Assembly: GCA_025359965.1 (NCBI GenBank)
Contig: JANYDC010000068.1
Span: 1 to 64,000 of the forward strand
Length of the DNA: 64,000 bases
Reading direction: 5' to 3'
Source: Pedosphaera sp.
Lineage (GTDB): Bacteria > Verrucomicrobiota > Verrucomicrobiia > Limisphaerales > SXQI01
Of the stretch, positions 29,787-39,617 are shown in pieces. Each line of letters opens with the position of its first letter. The first letter of the stretch is position 1. The position numbers and the translations under genes were made by a program. The notes under the pieces are model-generated. The model was not told the origin of the DNA and searched no databases. It was given only the letters and a program-made list of their open reading frames with translations.

Positions 29787-30800
29787 TTACTCGCGGCCCG
29801 CCGCAGCAATGAAAGGCTTGAGTTCCTCCATCAGCTTTGCAAAACCTTCCAAAGAGAGCTGTTGGGCAGCATCACTCAAAGCCTCGGCGGGGTTCGGATG
29901 AACTTCGATGATCAGAGCATCAGCTCCCATGGCCACAGCACCTTTGCACATGGCTACCACTAGATCCGCGCGTCCAGCGCCCTGGCTGGGATCAATAACG
30001 ATGGGGCAGTGCGATTCCTTCTTGATGATGGGAATCGTGCTCAAGTCGAGCGTGTTGCGGGTGTATGTCTCAAAGGTGCGAATGCCGCGCTCGCAGAACA
30101 TCAAGTTTGCGTTCTCATTGGCAAGAACGTACTCACCAGCCAGCAGCCATTCATCGATTCTCATGGAGAGACCGCGCTTGAGCATCACCGGCTTGCCGGT
30201 TTTGGCGGCGGCGATCAGGAGTTGGAAATTCTGGGCGTTGCGCGCGCCGATCTGCAAAATGTCCGCATATTCCGCAACCATTTCGGCCTGCTGTTCGCTG
30301 AGAAGCTCGGTGATGATGGCGAGGCCGGTTTCCTTGCGGGCCTTGGCCAGCAGCTTCAATCCTTTTTCGCCAAGACCTTGGAATTCGTAGGGGGAAGTGC
30401 GGGGTTTGAAAGCACCGCCCCGCAGAATGGTGGCGCCGGCTTTCTTCACGGCATGTGCAGTGGTGAGAAGCTGTTTCTCGCTCTCGACGGAACAGGGACC
30501 GGCCATGATCTGGACCTTCTTGCCGCCGATGATGTTTCCCCGCACATCGATCGTGGAATTGCCCTTGTGGGCCTCGCGGCTGACCAGTTTATAACGTTTT
30601 TGCACAGGCATGACACTTTCAACGCCGGGCATTACCGTGAGTGCCTCGAGCGTGTTGTGGGTGCGCTCGTCGCCAATGGCACCAACCACTGTCCGCTCGA
30701 CACCCCGCATCACATGCGGGCGGTATCCCAGTTTCTTGATTTCCTTCAGAACAAGGGCTTCTTCTTTCCGGCTAATGCCGGGCTTCAGGACTATGATCAT
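29787..30800 (-). CDS. aroF: 3-deoxy-7-phosphoheptulonate (DAHP) synthase
   Basis: 337 residues, of the type with a fused N-terminal regulatory domain (TIGR01361 class, as in Thermotoga). Residues 1-65 form a ferredoxin-like/ACT-like domain (MIIVLKPGISRKEEALVLK) associated with feedback inhibition by aromatic amino acids. The barrel follows with MAGPCSVESEKQL, LRGGAFKPRTSPYEFQGLG, ITELLSEQQ, QIGARNAQNFQLL, PVMLKRGLSMRIDEWLLAGEY, PIVIDPSQGAGR and ALIIEVHPNPAEALSDAAQQL. It condenses phosphoenolpyruvate and erythrose 4-phosphate, the first step of the shikimate pathway. The leader shows transcription attenuation by an aromatic-rich peptide, so control is probably at both enzyme and RNA level. 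Confidence 0.96.
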   Translation of the reverse strand: MIIVLKPGISRKEEALVLKEIKKLGYRPHVMRGVERTVVGAIGDERTHNTLEALTVMPGVESVMPVQKRYKLVSREAHKGNSTIDVRGNIIGGKKVQIMAGPCSVESEKQLLTTAHAVKKAGATILRGGAFKPRTSPYEFQGLGEKGLKLLAKARKETGLAIITELLSEQQAEMVAEYADILQIGARNAQNFQLLIAAAKTGKPVMLKRGLSMRIDEWLLAGEYVLANENANLMFCERGIRTFETYTRNTLDLSTIPIIKKESHCPIVIDPSQGAGRADLVVAMCKGAVAMGADALIIEVHPNPAEALSDAAQQLSLEGFAKLMEELKPFIAAAGRE

Positions 30801-30833
30801 ACTTTGGTTGGCAGTGGCGTCTGACGGCTCAAT

Positions 30834-30860
30834 AAAAAAACCGCAGGCGTCGACCTGCGG
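30834..30860 (-). terminator. Attenuator terminator in the aroF leader
   Basis: On the minus strand CCGCAGG (30860-30854), loop TCGACG and CCTGCGG (30847-30841) form a perfect seven-base-pair stem followed by seven T residues (30840-30834). It lies 33 bases before the aroF ATG and after the leader-peptide stop, so it would prevent aroF transcription unless disrupted. Its 5' arm is also complementary to a segment inside the leader ORF. Confidence 0.88.
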
Positions 30861-30901
30861 TATTTTGGGTTACTTCCAATTCAGACACGCCCAAACCGCA
30901 G
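30855..30901 (-). promoter_or_regulatory. Antiterminator helix of the aroF leader
   Basis: On the minus strand CTGCGG (30901-30896) can pair with CCGCAG (30860-30855), and the adjacent TTTGGG (30895-30890) with CCCAAA (30869-30864). That gives two six-base-pair helices separated only by a three-base AUA bulge. This structure uses the 5' arm of the terminator, so the two folds are mutually exclusive. The upstream arms lie within leader codons that a terminating ribosome would cover. Confidence 0.8.
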
Positions 30902-30964
30902 CGATGGGGAGGTAAAAAAATACCCCCACGCAAACTCGCCGCTAAATCGGGCATAGGTCATCAT
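30881..30964 (-). CDS. Aromatic-rich leader peptide controlling aroF
   Basis: A 27-codon ORF (start ATG-ATG at 30964/30961, TGA at 30883-30881). Eight of 27 residues are aromatic: Tyr4, Phe7, Phe11, Trp13, Tyr15, Phe16, Phe17 and Phe24. The core W-G-Y-F-F is encoded at 30928-30914. The size, the position between a promoter and an attenuator-type terminator, and the amino-acid content matching the product pathway are those of attenuation leader peptides such as those of trp and pheA. Ribosome stalling on the Trp/Tyr/Phe codons would leave the antiterminator arm at 30901-30890 free. No Shine-Dalgarno site is seen close to the ATG. If the promoter below is right, the message is nearly leaderless. 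Confidence 0.82.
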   Translation of the reverse strand: MMTYARFSGEFAWGYFFTSPSLRFGRV

Positions 30965-30973
30965 GTGAGGTCG

Positions 30974-31001
30974 AAAATACCAGAGCATGCCTCTCAGTCA
31001 A
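30974..31001 (-). promoter_or_regulatory. Candidate aroF leader promoter
   Basis: On the minus strand TTGACT (31001-30996) and TATTTT (30979-30974) are 16 bases apart. The start site would fall near 30967, only a few bases before the leader-peptide ATG. An upstream start or readthrough from the small gene at 31027 is also possible. Confidence 0.5.
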
Positions 31002-31472: not shown

Positions 31473-34400
31473 TTACGGCCTCGAACGCTTAATGCGATAA
31501 AACTGGACCGTACTGGCACTCGGCAATGGAACAGAAATAACATTACCAGTGCCAACAATGGTCGCAGTTGCAGCAGTCCAATCCGCCATGTCAGCGGACA
31601 CCTCGACCAAGTACGAGATGCCCAATTGACTCTCGAAACTAAGCGCAAAGCCATTCGCAGAGGGCGAAAGAGCAAGAATCCGGGGCTGCACAGGCATGTT
31701 GCCATTGATCCGCGCGATACCCCATCGCGGCTGGAGATCTGCGGTGCTGAATGCGCCTGCAATCAACACATTTCCGTCAGCGGGCTGATAGAGAACTGCA
31801 TAGACGGTGCCGTTGGCGCCATCGCCGGTCTTGAATGTCGTATCCAAGGAGCCGTCAGCGTTAAGCCTTGCAATCCTGTTTCGTTGCACGCCATCCACCG
31901 TGGTGAAGTCGCCACCGATCAGGATCTTTTGATCATCCTGCAAGTCAATGCTGTAAACGACGCTGTTGGGGCTGCCGTTAGTGAATGTCGCATCCAAGGA
32001 GCCATTTGGCATAAGGCGCGCAATGCGGCTGCGTGGCTGGCCGTCAAACTGGGTGAAGTCACCCACGACCATAATGTACTCGTTCTGGAGAACGTAAACA
32101 TCGTAAATGGTGCCGTTAGCTCCAGCTCCGGGCATGAAGCTGGAATCACGTTCACCTGTATTCTTTAAGCGCGCGATGCCAGGACTGCTAACTCCGTTGA
32201 CAGTAGTAAAGGCACCAACGACCAGAATGTTGGTGCCGTGCAGCACGTTGATGGAGTATACGTTGTTGTCAACATTTGCAGTAAACGCAGTGTCAACGGT
32301 TCCGTCATGGTTCAAGCGAGCCAAGTGGTCGCGATTTGCGGCACTGGTCTTGTCAAAGAATCCTCCGATCAAGACTTTGTTGCTGAACTCTTCCCAAGCC
32401 ACGGCGGAGACCTGACCGTTGAGACCGAGCGGCAAGTCAAAACCCATGTCGAGAGAGCCATCCATATTGAAGCGTGCAACCCGGTTCTTCAGTTGGTTAT
32501 TCACGTTATTGAAGGAACCAGCAGCTAAAAAGTCTCCGCCGTCAAGAGTAGCAATGGCCCGAACACCTTTATCAGGACCGATTCCTGGGTTGAATGATGC
32601 TACCACGGAACCATCGGAATTGATTTGAGCCAACCGAGTCAGATTGGAGCCGTTGTATGAGGTGAAATCACCACCGATTAGGTAACCGCCGTTGGCCATG
32701 CGAACCACAGCCCTAACTGCCGCATTGGTACCGTTAGCCATGGCACCAGGAGCAAACAATGAGTTCGTGGGATTAAAGGAAGGGTCAAGACTTCCAGCGC
32801 CCAAATCGTTGTCAACAATGGTCAACACCACTGTAGTGGGGTCATCAAGGATTGCGCCCCCGCGAACATTTCGCAGGCCCACCAAGACCGTTTCATTCCC
32901 TTCGACAGCAGTGTCGTCATTGATGGGAACAGCAAAGGATTTAGAAACTTCGCCATCAGCAAAGGTGAGGATTCCCACCACATCCCGATAATCACCCGCA
33001 GCACCCGCAGTGGCGGTTCCAGCGGTGGTAAAATAATCCACGGAAATTACACCTGTGGTGCCGCCTTTGCGGGTGACGGTTATGGTGGCTTCGCCCTGAC
33101 TTTCACCCACTTTGAAACTCGCTTCGCTGAAACCCAGATGCCCCGGCGAGAAATCGTTATCCACAATAATCACCTTGGACTGAGCAATTCCGAGCCTTAA
33201 CCCGCTATTGCCTCCGTCTATGCCATTGGTGGTTAAAGTGATTCCGAAATCATGGTCGCCCTGTACCAATAGGTTATCAATAATACCGATACCAAAGGTC
33301 TGGCTGACCTGACCTGCGGCAAAGGTGATCGTATTAGTGGTCGGCTGAAAATCAATGCCGGACTTTGCAGAGTTGGTCAGTTCAACCGTCTTGAAAACTA
33401 CACTCTCGGTTCGGAGAGTTGAACCGGTACGGACAACGGTAATGAAAACTGAACCTCCCGGGATGCCTTCATTCACAAGATACTCAGCCTGAGAGAAGGA
33501 AACCTGACTGTCGTCGCTCTGAATGTTGATGACCGCAGTCGGTTGAAAGCCCAGAGTTCCGGGGGAAACCACATTGGTCAGTTGAAGCAAAACGGTCTCC
33601 ACCGATTCCAGAAGGTTGTCGTTGATGATACGAACCACGAAATTAGTGGCTACCTCCCCTTCAGGGAATACGAGAACATTGCTGGGTGAAGCTGGATCCA
33701 AAGGAACGTAATCCAGATTGGCTGTCGCGGATCCGTCCCTAGTGCCGATGCTTACCTTCAATTCACCAGTAGTACCACCCGTTCGCACCACTGTGATGAG
33801 CGTGTTCGTCGAGGATTCGCTACCATTAAACTGGGCTTTGGAGAATTGCACGCTTCCGGAACCATCCAAGGAACCACCAAAAACACGAGCAATGCGTGTT
33901 TTGGGAACGCCATTGTATTCCGTGAAACCGCCGCTGAACACAATCTTTCGATCGGGTTGAATCAAAAGGGAGGAAACGGTTCCATTCGGACCAAAGCCAA
34001 AATTAATGGTAGGATCAACCGAACCATCAGCGCGAAGGCGGGTGAGTTGATTGCGAGTCACACCATTAAAGCGGTGAAAGTCACCGCCCACCACAATTCG
34101 ACTATCAATCTGAACTGCGATGGCGTTTACAGGACCATCCGCGCCCCAGACGACTCTAGAGTCAGTCAAGCCGACGGAAGGATTAAACGTAGGATCCAAA
34201 TTGCCGTTGGAGTCCAAGCGCAGGATACGTCCAACCTTGGCACCGTTGAAATCGGTGAACAATCCGCCCACCAGAATCATACCATCGCTTTGGATGGCGA
34301 TGGAACGAACCGAGCCGCCGAAACCAGTACCAGAATTAAAATTAGTGGCTCCGAAAGCGGTATCAGTGGTGCCATCTGAGTTCAGACGAACAAGCCTGAA

Positions 34401-37400
34401 TTGACTACTGCCATCAAAAGTGGTGAAATCTCCACCTGCAATAATTTTCCCGTCAGATTGGATGGCGGTGGCGTACACAGTACCGTTAGCTCCCGTACCC
34501 ACATCAAAGGAAGCATCGATGACTCCATTAGTCTGCAGCCGGACCAGTCCACTTCGTTGAAATCCATTGAAAGTGCTAAAACCACCACCTAAGACAACCT
34601 TTTGGTCGGGCTGTACGGTGACGGAGTAGATAGGGTTATCAGCACCTGACCCAGGGTTGAAACTGACATCAACAGAGCCGTCAAGATTAAGGCGAGCGAC
34701 ATAATTACGATTGGTGCCGGCCACATTAGTGAACAGACCAGAAATCACGATACGTTCATCGAGGGTTAAAGCCATTGACCGAATCGCGCCCCCAGAGACG
34801 CCGCTACCTATATCAAAAATAGGATCCAGCGTGCCGTCATCGATAAGCCGAGCCAAGCCTGTGCGGACGACATTGTTGACGTAACGGAAATCGCCTGCCG
34901 CAACAACAGACCCATCCGCCTGCAAGAGAGTTGAGTAAACAAAATCATCAACGCCGTTGGCAGTAAAGGTGGGGTCAAGCGAGCCGGCTGGCTCGCGCAA
35001 CAACTCGTTGTCAATAATAGTCAAAACGGACGATGGAACCAGTATGGTTCCAGGAGCCGCACGACTCAACAGGAGTGAAATAGTACGATCACCGTCCGCA
35101 GCATTATTGTCGATAATGGGGATATCGAAGCTCCTGCTCACTTCACCCGCCGCAAACAGCAGGTTGGTGGCGACCGCAGTAAAATCAATACCGTTAATCG
35201 CGGTCAGGTTGGTGACCGTGACATTCACCGAATTAGCACCCGCCTGACCGCCAATGCGAAGGACGGTAACGCGTATTTTCCCAGCATTTTCGTCGATGGC
35301 GTAGTTGCTTTGACTGAACTTGAAGGAGCCGGGAGTGTCGTCATTGAGTATGCGTACACTGACAATGGTGCGGCTACCCAAGGCGTTGTTATTAGCGTTA
35401 TTGTCAATGAAGGCATTGGTTAGCTGAAGCTGGAAAGTCCTGTCTGGATCCACGACAAGGTTATTAATCAGCGGAACGGTGAGAGTGCGTGAGGTGATAT
35501 CACCAGCAGCCCAAGCAAGTGTGCCGGAAATAGGCAAGTAATCACGACCAGCCAGAGCAGAACCATCAACAGTGGCGTAATCAACACGCAAATCACCCAA
35601 CACGCCGCCTGTGCGTTCTACGACAATAGTTGCGAACTGAGCGGACTCGGAGTTTGTGTAGGTAGATCGCTGAAAAGAGATGCGACCGGGCAAGAAATCA
35701 TTGTCCAGAATCGTCAAAAGCGCCTGAGCACGGGTTGGATTGATCCTAAGTGATTGGGGTGTATTGGTAGGGAACCCTGTGGGGTTCACCAAGAACAAGT
35801 TAATTGTCTCATCAAGCTCAGCCTTGGTATCATCGTTGATACGAACGTTGAAGGATTTTTGAACAACGCCAGGACCAAAAGTTAAAGTCCCGGTAGCTTT
35901 GTCGTAATCGCCGCCAACGTTAGCCTTGCCCTGCGTGGCGGTGCCGTCTTTGGTGGAATAATCAACCGCGACGGTCCCAGAACTGCCGCCCTCGCGCACC
36001 ACGGTAATAATGGCATTAAGGCCATCCTCCTTCACGGTGTATTCGGTTGAAGCGAATGCGAGAGTGCCGAAATCAAAATCGTTGTCCGCAATGGTCAGCG
36101 TGGCAGTGGAACGACCCAGAGCAAAACCAACTGGAATGGGTTCACCTCCAAGAGTGAGAGAACCTTGAGCAGAGAAAAGTACCAGATTAACAGATTCATC
36201 GCCCTCATGAATCAAATCGTCGGTGATTTTGACGTTAAAATTATTGGCGGAAGTTTTTTGGTTAAAGGGACCAGACCTGAGTGGTCCATTAAACTCCTGA
36301 TTCCCGGTAAACACTTCGTCGTTACTTGGGCCGGAAAGCGCATCACTAACTTGTCGGGTTCCGTTTTCTTTTCCTGTATAGGTCGACGGATACGCAGCTG
36401 AGGAAAGCAATTGTGTGAAATCGAGCCCTTCAGTTGCCGACCCGGGTCCGCTCGGGGAAGCCACCGTAGCAATACCCACTGCAGCTGCCGCAAGACTGCC
36501 ATTTTCGCGCCGGAGCGTGACAAAAGTAGTGCCAGCGTCCTCATCCGCGAAGTACTGATCTCGGTCAAAGCTCAAATTACCTGGTCCCGGCGTCTGTCCA
36601 CCGATAACGCGCGCGATGTATGACTGAGACAAGACATCATCCCGATTAGTGCCGCCACCGACCCGGCGGAAGCGTCCGCCTATGTAGAAATAATCCAGAG
36701 TAATGTCGTTCGACACCGAATTGGTGAAAATGTTTAAGGAAGCGGTTTGGCGAACAAAATTGGTTCCGACGAAATTAATATTTGTCCGATAATGTGTAAT
36801 GGAACGGACGAAGTTCTCTTGTGAGTTAATATTATCCGTGCTGAGGCGATTGGGGAGACCGGCAAATTGATTATAAGCGGTATCCATGAATGAGGTATCC
36901 AAGGATCCATCATAATTCAGACGCGCCATTCCCAAACGGCGATTGCCGTTAAAAGAGGTAAAAAGACCGCCAAGGACTGGCTTGCCATCAGGTTGAATCG
37001 CGATGGAATAAACAGTCTTATCAAAACCTGAGCCAGGGGAGAAAGCCGTATTCAATGAACCATTCGCATTGAGTTTGGCAATTCCATTGCGGCTGCGGAA
37101 GTCGACCGTGGTGAAGTCGCCCGCGATGATGATCGAGTCCCCTTGAAGGGCCACACTGTAGACTATGCCATCAACGCCAGTGCCAGGGTTGAAGGTTGGA
37201 TCAACCACGCCATTAAGGTTTAATCGAGCCACGCCGCTCCGGTTGGCTCCAGCAAACTCGGTAAACTGACCGCCGACGACTGGCCTCGAATCGCCGGGCG
37301 TCAAAGCAATGGAATATACGGAACCATTAAAGCCCTGACCCGGATCAAAACTGGTGTCCAAAAGACCCGAAGGAAGCAAACGGGCTATGCCAGCACGGTT

Positions 37401-39617
37401 AGTGCCGCCATAGCTGGAGAAAGTACCGCCAATGTAGATTCGCTGTTGATCATCAATTACAGCCGCATTAATGGCACTATCGTTGTCTATACCAAGTCCA
37501 GGATCGAACGAAGGATCCAGTGTGCCATCGGGTAACAATCGAGCGATACCAAGCCTGCCGACTCCGTTGATAGACCTGAACTGTCCCGCCACAATAATCT
37601 TTGAATCAAGAGATTGGAGCACAAGTGCGCTCACGGTGCCATCGGCCCCGGTGCCGGGCTGAAAAGTAGTGTCGAGGGAACCATCCGCGTTCAAACGGGC
37701 GATACCGGCGCGGGAAATGGTGTTCACCTTGGTAAAATCACCGCCAATGACGACCTTGCCGTCAGATGGCTGGACCAGCGTGGCGTGAACGGTGTTATTG
37801 GCCCCGGGCAGAGTATTGTTCGGGGGATCAGTCTGCTCTTGATTGGCTGGATTGAAAGTGCGATCCGCCGCACCAGCGGGTTGTTCCCCAATTTCCACAT
37901 AACCGTTGTTGACGCGCATTCCTTGAAATTGATCAGCAAGAATGTTGACGTGGGCATTCCTATTCACACCCATTATTCCAGTATCCCCAACGTCCTGCCA
38001 TAGTCGAAGGAACATGTCTTCAGAAAACTCGACCCTATCGTCGTTGATAATGGGAATGACGGCAGGTTTCCAACCGACTTCAGTTGCGCCCCAATTAAGG
38101 GTGTTAGGAACGGCCGTATCGGGGCCAACAAATTCACGCCAGATACCCGTGAGAGGCGGAAGAAAATCCGCGTAAGGCGTGGCATATTCGTTGCCAGCAT
38201 CAGTCTCGAATCCATTATCCTTTAGCGTTCCACCTCCGTTACTGAAAAGTGTTGGATCAACGTTGTAACGAACCGTCACACCATCGCTGAGCGGGCCTGA
38301 ACGCCTCACCCATAGGCGCGCCTGCCTCTGGTCCTTGACCGGATCAAGGTTTGGCGGGTTTGAGTTGGGTATTGGGTCACGCGAGGCTGGCTCCACAACG
38401 GGCTGGGTTTCACTAAACTGACTGCGGTAACGGATTAGATTGAACCCAACTTGAACATCTCTGATATCGACAGTTGCCGAGGTGTTTCGCCCAAAAATGG
38501 GCTTGATCAAGGCAGGATCCTCTTGTGGGTCCGCCCTGAGATTGGATAAGTTAACGTTGAAAAGCCAATGCGCAGGGTTGAAATAGTTAGTGGGGTAAAT
38601 ATCCCCAAAGAATGTACCTCCAAACGCGCCACCACCGTCAGTAGGCACCTCATCAAAGATCCTTTTGACAATGCGAACCAGAAAGGTCGCGCTCATCTGG
38701 AAATCATCAAAAACGATGGTGCCGTTGGTGGGAAGAAAATCGGCAAAAGGTCTCGCGTTGTCAGTATAACCAAACGTTATTAAATTGGTGAGGTCAAAAA
38801 TATTAGTGAAAGAAAGCGGAGGACCGTTCGTGGTGGTGGCAAAGTCAAGCAGTACTCTTCCAACGGAGCCGGCGTTGCGTGTCACTGTCAGCAACACACC
38901 AGGCTGTGACTGATCAGCGTCGTCAAGAACGGCCTCAGCGTGTGATGTGATATAATTGGCTTTACTGAACTGAAATGTACCGGCAGGCGAAACCTCGCCA
39001 GTGCCTTCATTATCCTGAATCTCAACTACCGCAGTGGGAATTAAGCCACCGAGTTCTCCATTTTGAGGGTTTGAAAGGCGCAAGGCAATGGTTCTCGGAG
39101 CGTTGGTAAAGCCATTGTCCAAAATGGTAATATTGAAAGTATCCGTACCGGTGAAAAGATTAGTGCCTCCAAAGCCCGACTGAAGAACAGCCGTACCTGA
39201 AATAGGAATATAATCTGCACCGGGTATGGCGGTGCCGACGCCATCGTCTGTAGTGTAATCTACAGTCATGAAGTCACCAAAAATGATGCCGTTTGTTGAA
39301 AAAATTGGATCGAATTGAGCAGTGATGGTGATGGTCACAGAACCGCCTGCTTCATTGATTGTGTAGGTTGGCGCACTGAAATCAGCAAGCCCGGTACCAA
39401 AGAAAATGATCTGCGCACGCGAAGTCCCTTGTGTCAAAACAAAAAGGAACAGGAAAAGTAAAAGACTTGTGGAGATCGACCGGCAGGCTCCGAGCAAACT
39501 CCCGACAATGGACGCGCCAAAACGCAGCAGGCGCGATAGTGGGGCTTCAGCCGCGACTGTTGACACGGCGGCACACGGGGACAATTCGTTTTTGGTCACA
39601 GGATTAAAGCAACACAT
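31473..39617 (-). CDS. Giant Calx-beta / delta-60 repeat exported protein, downstream paralogue
   Basis: 2,714 residues. A long N-region and hydrophobic core (LLLFLFLFVLTQGTSRA) form the signal peptide. Then follow two or three Calx-beta domains (about 70-580), a first block of seven delta-60 repeats (about 583-1006), four Calx-beta domains, a second block of seven (about 1543-1914), three Calx-beta domains, a third block of seven (about 2278-2640) and the shared C-terminal domain. Typical delta-60 units read GGDFTTVDGVQRNRIARLN-x-DGSLDTTF; Calx-beta units read F-x-x-x-Y-x-V-x-E-x-G. Calx-beta domains bind calcium in adhesion proteins, so a surface or matrix adhesin is likely. It is a tandem paralogue of the gene 45 bases upstream. 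Confidence 0.88.
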   Translation of the reverse strand: MCCFNPVTKNELSPCAAVSTVAAEAPLSRLLRFGASIVGSLLGACRSISTSLLLFLFLFVLTQGTSRAQIIFFGTGLADFSAPTYTINEAGGSVTITITAQFDPIFSTNGIIFGDFMTVDYTTDDGVGTAIPGADYIPISGTAVLQSGFGGTNLFTGTDTFNITILDNGFTNAPRTIALRLSNPQNGELGGLIPTAVVEIQDNEGTGEVSPAGTFQFSKANYITSHAEAVLDDADQSQPGVLLTVTRNAGSVGRVLLDFATTTNGPPLSFTNIFDLTNLITFGYTDNARPFADFLPTNGTIVFDDFQMSATFLVRIVKRIFDEVPTDGGGAFGGTFFGDIYPTNYFNPAHWLFNVNLSNLRADPQEDPALIKPIFGRNTSATVDIRDVQVGFNLIRYRSQFSETQPVVEPASRDPIPNSNPPNLDPVKDQRQARLWVRRSGPLSDGVTVRYNVDPTLFSNGGGTLKDNGFETDAGNEYATPYADFLPPLTGIWREFVGPDTAVPNTLNWGATEVGWKPAVIPIINDDRVEFSEDMFLRLWQDVGDTGIMGVNRNAHVNILADQFQGMRVNNGYVEIGEQPAGAADRTFNPANQEQTDPPNNTLPGANNTVHATLVQPSDGKVVIGGDFTKVNTISRAGIARLNADGSLDTTFQPGTGADGTVSALVLQSLDSKIIVAGQFRSINGVGRLGIARLLPDGTLDPSFDPGLGIDNDSAINAAVIDDQQRIYIGGTFSSYGGTNRAGIARLLPSGLLDTSFDPGQGFNGSVYSIALTPGDSRPVVGGQFTEFAGANRSGVARLNLNGVVDPTFNPGTGVDGIVYSVALQGDSIIIAGDFTTVDFRSRNGIAKLNANGSLNTAFSPGSGFDKTVYSIAIQPDGKPVLGGLFTSFNGNRRLGMARLNYDGSLDTSFMDTAYNQFAGLPNRLSTDNINSQENFVRSITHYRTNINFVGTNFVRQTASLNIFTNSVSNDITLDYFYIGGRFRRVGGGTNRDDVLSQSYIARVIGGQTPGPGNLSFDRDQYFADEDAGTTFVTLRRENGSLAAAAVGIATVASPSGPGSATEGLDFTQLLSSAAYPSTYTGKENGTRQVSDALSGPSNDEVFTGNQEFNGPLRSGPFNQKTSANNFNVKITDDLIHEGDESVNLVLFSAQGSLTLGGEPIPVGFALGRSTATLTIADNDFDFGTLAFASTEYTVKEDGLNAIITVVREGGSSGTVAVDYSTKDGTATQGKANVGGDYDKATGTLTFGPGVVQKSFNVRINDDTKAELDETINLFLVNPTGFPTNTPQSLRINPTRAQALLTILDNDFLPGRISFQRSTYTNSESAQFATIVVERTGGVLGDLRVDYATVDGSALAGRDYLPISGTLAWAAGDITSRTLTVPLINNLVVDPDRTFQLQLTNAFIDNNANNNALGSRTIVSVRILNDDTPGSFKFSQSNYAIDENAGKIRVTVLRIGGQAGANSVNVTVTNLTAINGIDFTAVATNLLFAAGEVSRSFDIPIIDNNAADGDRTISLLLSRAAPGTILVPSSVLTIIDNELLREPAGSLDPTFTANGVDDFVYSTLLQADGSVVAAGDFRYVNNVVRTGLARLIDDGTLDPIFDIGSGVSGGAIRSMALTLDERIVISGLFTNVAGTNRNYVARLNLDGSVDVSFNPGSGADNPIYSVTVQPDQKVVLGGGFSTFNGFQRSGLVRLQTNGVIDASFDVGTGANGTVYATAIQSDGKIIAGGDFTTFDGSSQFRLVRLNSDGTTDTAFGATNFNSGTGFGGSVRSIAIQSDGMILVGGLFTDFNGAKVGRILRLDSNGNLDPTFNPSVGLTDSRVVWGADGPVNAIAVQIDSRIVVGGDFHRFNGVTRNQLTRLRADGSVDPTINFGFGPNGTVSSLLIQPDRKIVFSGGFTEYNGVPKTRIARVFGGSLDGSGSVQFSKAQFNGSESSTNTLITVVRTGGTTGELKVSIGTRDGSATANLDYVPLDPASPSNVLVFPEGEVATNFVVRIINDNLLESVETVLLQLTNVVSPGTLGFQPTAVINIQSDDSQVSFSQAEYLVNEGIPGGSVFITVVRTGSTLRTESVVFKTVELTNSAKSGIDFQPTTNTITFAAGQVSQTFGIGIIDNLLVQGDHDFGITLTTNGIDGGNSGLRLGIAQSKVIIVDNDFSPGHLGFSEASFKVGESQGEATITVTRKGGTTGVISVDYFTTAGTATAGAAGDYRDVVGILTFADGEVSKSFAVPINDDTAVEGNETVLVGLRNVRGGAILDDPTTVVLTIVDNDLGAGSLDPSFNPTNSLFAPGAMANGTNAAVRAVVRMANGGYLIGGDFTSYNGSNLTRLAQINSDGSVVASFNPGIGPDKGVRAIATLDGGDFLAAGSFNNVNNQLKNRVARFNMDGSLDMGFDLPLGLNGQVSAVAWEEFSNKVLIGGFFDKTSAANRDHLARLNHDGTVDTAFTANVDNNVYSINVLHGTNILVVGAFTTVNGVSSPGIARLKNTGERDSSFMPGAGANGTIYDVYVLQNEYIMVVGDFTQFDGQPRSRIARLMPNGSLDATFTNGSPNSVVYSIDLQDDQKILIGGDFTTVDGVQRNRIARLNADGSLDTTFKTGDGANGTVYAVLYQPADGNVLIAGAFSTADLQPRWGIARINGNMPVQPRILALSPSANGFALSFESQLGISYLVEVSADMADWTAATATIVGTGNVISVPLPSASTVQFYRIKRSRP

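Follow-up and report, generated by a model that had tools for sequence, protein, structure and literature searches.

What does the short interval in front of aroF in a Verrucomicrobiota genome do, and is it read by a ribosome? The gene lies in the window, by which we mean the whole stretch of 64,000 nucleotides that was analysed, from a 5.1-Mb draft genome of Pedosphaera sp. (order Limisphaerales). The original prediction held that an attenuator with an aromatic leader peptide controls aroF, and it named a promoter pair, a leader ORF, a W-G-Y-F-F cluster, an antiterminator and a terminator; the position of each of these proved correct to the base. The conserved codon cluster, its spacing, mutually exclusive covarying helices and the linkage to aroF bear out the proposal as a whole, and on the strength of these comparisons we consider it very likely that the element attenuates transcription of aroF, the DAHP synthase gene, in the ribosome-mediated manner of trp leaders.

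Anatomy of the aroF leader region

The aroF product matches the profiles NF006421 (465.7 bits) and TIGR01361 (373.7 bits) as well as both PF00793 and PF18152. The gene stands alone: its downstream neighbour is convergent, so that control by the attenuator would be confined to aroF. The element sits between aroF and an orphan ORF, all on the minus strand (see the table). This ORF has no match in Pfam or NCBIfam and is absent from all other aroF loci searched; its lack of conservation assigns the leader to aroF. As side observations on the locus, the aroF ATG has no evident Shine-Dalgarno sequence before it (30801-30830, minus strand; ccaaccaaagtATG), and a 2714-residue ORF at 31473-39617 on the minus strand contains many repeats that, on inspection by eye, look like those of the Calx-beta and delta-60 (beta-propeller-like) types.

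Features of the aroF leader region, in the coordinates of the window
Feature	Position	Strand	Basis
Orphan ORF, 114 residues	31027-31371	minus	ORF list
Promoter: TTGACT (31001-30996), 16-nt spacer, extended -10 TGgTATTTT (TATTTT 30979-30974)	30974-31001	minus	sequence and scan
Leader peptide ORF MMTYARFSGEFAWGYFFTSPSLRFGRV; ATG 30964 or 30961, TGA 30883-30881	30881-30964	minus	sequence, relatives
Region 1, 5' arm of the protector helix (AUGCCCGA, GCGGCGA); partner about 30904-30887	30936-30954	minus	fold and swap test
Control codons W-G-Y-F-F	30914-30928	minus	sequence
Small hairpin GGGGGUA/UACCUCC, Phe codons in the loop	30908-30927	minus	minimum-energy fold and swap test
Region 2, 5' arm of the antiterminator, CTGCGGTTTGGG, within the ORF	30890-30901	minus	sequence and swap test
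Region 3, 3' arm of the antiterminator, CCCAAAauaCCGCAG, common to the 5' arm of the terminator	30855-30869	minus	sequence, swap test, covariation
Intrinsic terminator ACCGCAGG-TCGACG-CCTGCGGT (30861-30840), U7 (30840-30834)	30834-30861	minus	sequence and scan
aroF, DAHP synthase with N-terminal ferredoxin-like domain	29787-30800	minus	profile matches

The anatomy of the element corresponds to that of a trp-type attenuator: a short ORF with many codons for the pathway's products precedes a biosynthetic gene, and an intrinsic terminator lies between the two. The leader ORF comprises 27 codons from the first ATG (26 from the second), eight of them aromatic, and its aromatic fraction (0.32, start codons excluded) is reached in 0.4% of base shuffles. 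A longer in-frame ORF from an ATG at 30988 was rejected: its start falls between the -35 and -10 boxes, and the relatives start at the 30964/30961 position. The promoter scan returned two promoter-like sites where 0.2 are expected from shuffles.

The antiterminator consists of two helices, CTGCGG (30901-30896) with CCGCAG (30860-30855) and TTTGGG (30895-30890) with CCCAAA (30869-30864), and the terminator pairs CCGCAGG with CCTGCGG plus one extra A-U pair, its T7 ending at 30834. By its geometry, region 2 would be covered by a ribosome sitting at the stop codon. The leader region as a whole folds strongly (z = -4.3). The antiterminator duplex alone is modestly unusual in the window (46 of 1000 dinucleotide shuffles); it is convincing because it is conserved across relatives, not from the statistics of a single sequence. 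The helices of the original prediction were thus right as far as antiterminator and terminator are concerned, but it had missed the protector helix in the early leader and the probable leaderless start.

Conservation across the order and beyond

The comparison of aroF leaders from related Verrucomicrobia that had been proposed with the original prediction revealed both conserved aromatic codons and covarying helices. We read 91 non-identical loci upstream of aroF; the closest relatives by the aroF protein are labelled Limisphaerales, Pedosphaera, Verrucomicrobiales or Verrucomicrobia. In a strict test that demands a terminator and an aromatic leader, 68 of the 91 loci pass as against two of 91 on the opposite strand. 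Most of the 91 loci share a common layout: an aromatic ORF, an arm of the form CCTGCG...GGGCTG, the stop codon, CCCG..CCGCAGG, the loop of the terminator, CCTGCGG and finally the U tract. We derived a covariance model from 49 curated leaders; it scores the window at 88.8 bits and nothing in the rest of its own genome above 20.9. Among 195 genomes of the order, 89 contain a match of at least 37.8 bits. We inspected 20 of the loci found with this model, picked mainly among middling and weak matches: 17 precede an aroF orthologue, and the other three are ordinary terminators. All strong matches inspected precede aroF. Weak matches elsewhere (e. g. L230, L234 and L241) were discarded as ordinary gene-end terminators. 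The element is thus an evolutionarily conserved companion of aroF.

At least three aromatic codons within five occur in 44 of the 49 curated leaders, with typical clusters such as YYFS and WFYF; Phe is encoded in all 49, Tyr in 47 and Trp in 42, Phe codons being the commonest. In the curated set, whose ORFs were chosen partly by aromatic content, the in-frame aromatic fraction is 0.232 as compared with 0.069 and 0.104 in the other two frames. Choosing the ORF from the promoter alone, blind to its residues, removes the circularity of picking aromatic ORFs, and the 66 loci that have a 15-45-codon ORF by this choice show a mean aromatic fraction of 0.227. Beyond the aromatic cluster, no peptide motif is fixed across the leaders, and the C-terminal sequence of the peptide looks dictated by the RNA arm that it overlaps (Leu-Arg from CTGCG).

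The promoter is conserved as well: TTGAC is found 34-40 nt before the leader start in 48 of the 49 curated leaders and is followed by a conserved TGnTAnnnT, giving the overall form TTGACg-N16-TAnnnT. The end of the -10 box is usually 6-10 nt from the start codon (9 nt from the ATG in the window), too near to leave room for a ribosome-binding site, and Shine-Dalgarno-like tetramers precede the leader start in just four of the 49 loci. Initiation at the usual spacing from so near a -10 box would place the 5' end of the transcript no more than a few bases from the AUG or GUG, and the leader mRNA is probably leaderless.

Support for the RNA helices comes from a swap test, in which the four regions were paired within their own locus or with partners exchanged among 55 loci (5000 permutations). 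Own arms pair better than swapped arms for regions 1:2 (-27.1 versus -21.6 kcal/mol), 2:3 (-20.1 versus -18.2 kcal/mol) and 3:4 (-22.8 versus -21.2 kcal/mol), in each case with none of the 5000 permutations reaching the observed value, whereas for the control pairing 1:3 own arms are no better than swapped ones (2103/5000). The outer protector helix alone is supported as well (-19.2 versus -15.2), and so is the hairpin around the control codons (0/5000). When columns are anchored, most of the strongest antiterminator covariation among 221 tested column pairs lines up along a pair of neighbouring antiparallel diagonals (8 x -3, 9 x -4 and 6 x -1; 13 x -7 and 11 x -5), as a helix requires. These anchored columns and the swap test were used since a MAFFT alignment of the leaders fails to align the antiterminator columns, and RNAalifold on this alignment returns the terminator only. 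The terminator stem is nearly invariant, with its outer pair swapping between G-C, A-U and G-U in relatives. One family of the order (L067, L070 and L224-L227) has GCCGCCGGC in place of the stem CCGCAGG, with the leader arm changed to match. The antiterminator thus covaries and excludes the terminator.

The element is not universal. It is lacking at the aroF loci L025, L097, L100, L104, L105 and L107. At L047 and L048, promoter and terminator are kept upstream of aroF and the leader ORF has no aromatic codons (MLVSSANRRSLPAVFL); judged by their sequences, these two loci represent natural decay of the attenuator. A rough scan of 14 genomes with crude start sites found no equivalent leader upstream of trpE, pheA or tyrA candidates, and trpE itself could not be located in the draft genome to which the window belongs. 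Most aroF genes examined outside the order have no such element, but a genome from another class of the phylum (G043) carries, on the minus strand before aroF (L121), an aromatic leader of its own, MEKNHHHPAVYRGRSQTGDFARDAHAVYFWFFYFSAGPRKWG, which includes VYFWFFYFS and is preceded by the promoter TTGACA-N17-TAATCT. Read by eye, CGGCCCAC within this ORF and GTGGGCCG in the arm of the terminator are complementary; a second copy of aroF that this genome carries (L185) has no such leader. This separately built element may reflect repeated or ancient use of aroF as a control point.

Ribosome position, the predicted switch and its alternatives

The spacings in the leader match what a translating ribosome would need. 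The median distance from the last aromatic codon to the antiterminator arm is 12 nt and that from the arm to the end of the stop codon is 21 nt (39 loci each), and the window has exactly these two values. We also folded the leader RNA in silico at the moment when region 3 has just emerged. In the window, the probability that region 3 is captured by upstream RNA is 0.26 without a ribosome, 0.86-0.88 with a ribosome stalled on the W, the Y or either F codon, 0.20 with the ribosome two codons past the control cluster and 0.16 with the ribosome at the stop codon. Across the 49 loci, simulated capture amounts to 0.85 for the stalled ribosome versus 0.32 at the stop codon, and to 0.61 in the ribosome-free state; just seven of the 49 combine a free value below 0.3 with a stalled value above 0.7. 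According to the simulation, the protector pairing 1:2, conserved by the swap test, would persist in the window when no ribosome is present, but only weakly in many relatives. Leaders swapped between loci barely alter the simulated switch (0.81 versus 0.85), so the simulation is not used as proof and indicates compatibility with a switch. That a stalled ribosome would free region 2 and a terminating one would cover it is what geometry and simulation point to. At full equilibrium, the complete window leader shows no switch: the terminator wins in every state, even with the ribosome stalled. The switch must therefore be kinetic, decided during transcription, as is standard for known attenuators.

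From this arrangement we infer how stalling, termination and the amino acid response would be connected. RNA polymerase would start on the leader AUG or no more than about 3 nt from it, and a ribosome would begin on the leaderless RNA end. If charged Phe-, Tyr- or Trp-tRNA is scarce, the ribosome would stall in W-G-Y-F-F, destroying the protector helix 1:2 and freeing region 2, which could then catch region 3 as it emerges; no terminator would form, and aroF would be transcribed. If the aromatic amino acids are plentiful, the ribosome would reach the stop codon and cover region 2, leaving region 3 to pair with region 4, and transcription would end at the U tract. With no ribosome loaded, region 1 would tend to hide region 2, and termination would win as well. 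Thus, aroF is probably turned on when Phe, Tyr and Trp run short.

Could the hairpin instead terminate the upstream gene, or a small RNA, next to a fortuitous ORF? A co-directional ORF, the orphan described above, does end 166 nt upstream of the terminator, and intrinsic terminators are common, but this ORF accompanies none of the other aroF loci searched, and promoter, ORF, antiterminator and terminator recur together before aroF across the order; we give this explanation hardly any credence. A metabolite- or tRNA-sensing RNA, i. e. a riboswitch or a T-box-like element that switches the terminator while translation of the ORF is incidental, would agree with the strong fold of the leader and is also compatible with the terminator/antiterminator layout. 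Yet Rfam yields no match at E <= 1 except a spurious miRNA match outside the element, and the conserved features are those of coding: in-frame aromatic codons, start, stop and spacings that match a ribosome footprint. We regard a sensing RNA as very improbable.

Other alternatives would leave the attenuator in place and add to it or narrow it. The leader peptide or the terminated RNA may also act in trans, like peTrpL/rnTrpL of Sinorhizobium meliloti, whose RNA likewise begins at the AUG of a leaderless ORF (PMC7298713), as is probable here; against this stand the apparent dictation of the C-terminal peptide by the RNA arm and the lack of a fixed peptide motif beyond the aromatic cluster, and we deem such an additional role improbable. 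The narrower and compatible proposal that the attenuator reads a single amino acid, most likely Phe, with the Tyr and Trp codons as passengers, deserves more attention: Phe codons are the commonest and occur in every curated leader, and C. glutamicum aroF is reported to respond to Phe but not to Tyr limitation despite its F-Y-F leader (PMC11802643). It has to be set against the retention of Tyr and Trp codons in most leaders, and we consider it possible, if rather doubtful. As to the attenuator in its widest form, it is tempting to speculate that an order-wide, probably leaderless element senses all three aromatic amino acids via the mixed codon cluster and thereby sets the entry into the shikimate pathway at a single gene; this is a tentative proposal, somewhat more likely to be wrong than right.

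Relation to known attenuators

The mechanism is classical, and its occurrence is new to Verrucomicrobiota within the literature searched: we found no description of peptide attenuation in this phylum there (most subscription papers lay outside the search), and no family of Rfam 15 matches the aroF leader. The view that attenuation of a DAHP synthase gene had gone undescribed thus holds for Verrucomicrobiota, but there are precedents elsewhere. In Corynebacterium glutamicum, a Phe-Tyr-Phe leader, aroR, is reported to precede the DAHP synthase gene aroF, with the operon being transcribed more when ribosomes stall for want of Phe (Neshat 2014, cited in PMC11802643; PMC4046766). The two systems, likened here by description, share an aromatic leader peptide before a DAHP synthase gene; they belong to different phyla, and aroR controls an operon whereas aroF of the window stands alone. 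In Acholeplasma, attenuation has been proposed for the uORFC-13-1 motif (PMC8632094), which also places a promoter, a small ORF with one or more Phe codons and a terminator before aroF. Unlike the Verrucomicrobiota element, which lacks a Shine-Dalgarno site and mixes F, Y and W in its cluster, this motif includes a ribosome-binding site, and its U run encodes at least one Phe. The probable start of the RNA at the leader AUG is shared with the trpL attenuator of S. meliloti, but there a 14-codon Trp leader precedes trpE(G) (PMC7298713), and here the leader precedes aroF.

The order-wide conservation, the probable leaderless start and the mixed Phe/Tyr/Trp control codons set the aroF leaders apart. 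They widen the range of peptide-based attenuation to a phylum that is large and mostly uncultured, and provide a sequence-level prediction of how aromatic amino acid synthesis may be gated in Verrucomicrobiota. With about 90 natural variants, they make a good system to study the co-evolution of three competing helices with a codon cluster, as well as attenuation from leaderless mRNA.

Ribosome-mediated attenuation as formulated in the Yanofsky model is textbook knowledge for trp and pheA in enterobacteria. The aroF leader has the same four-region logic of 1:2, 2:3 and 3:4 pairings, with control codons and a stop codon near region 2. It differs from the enterobacterial systems in its target, the first common enzyme of the pathway, in its codons for all three aromatic amino acids, and in being probably leaderless.
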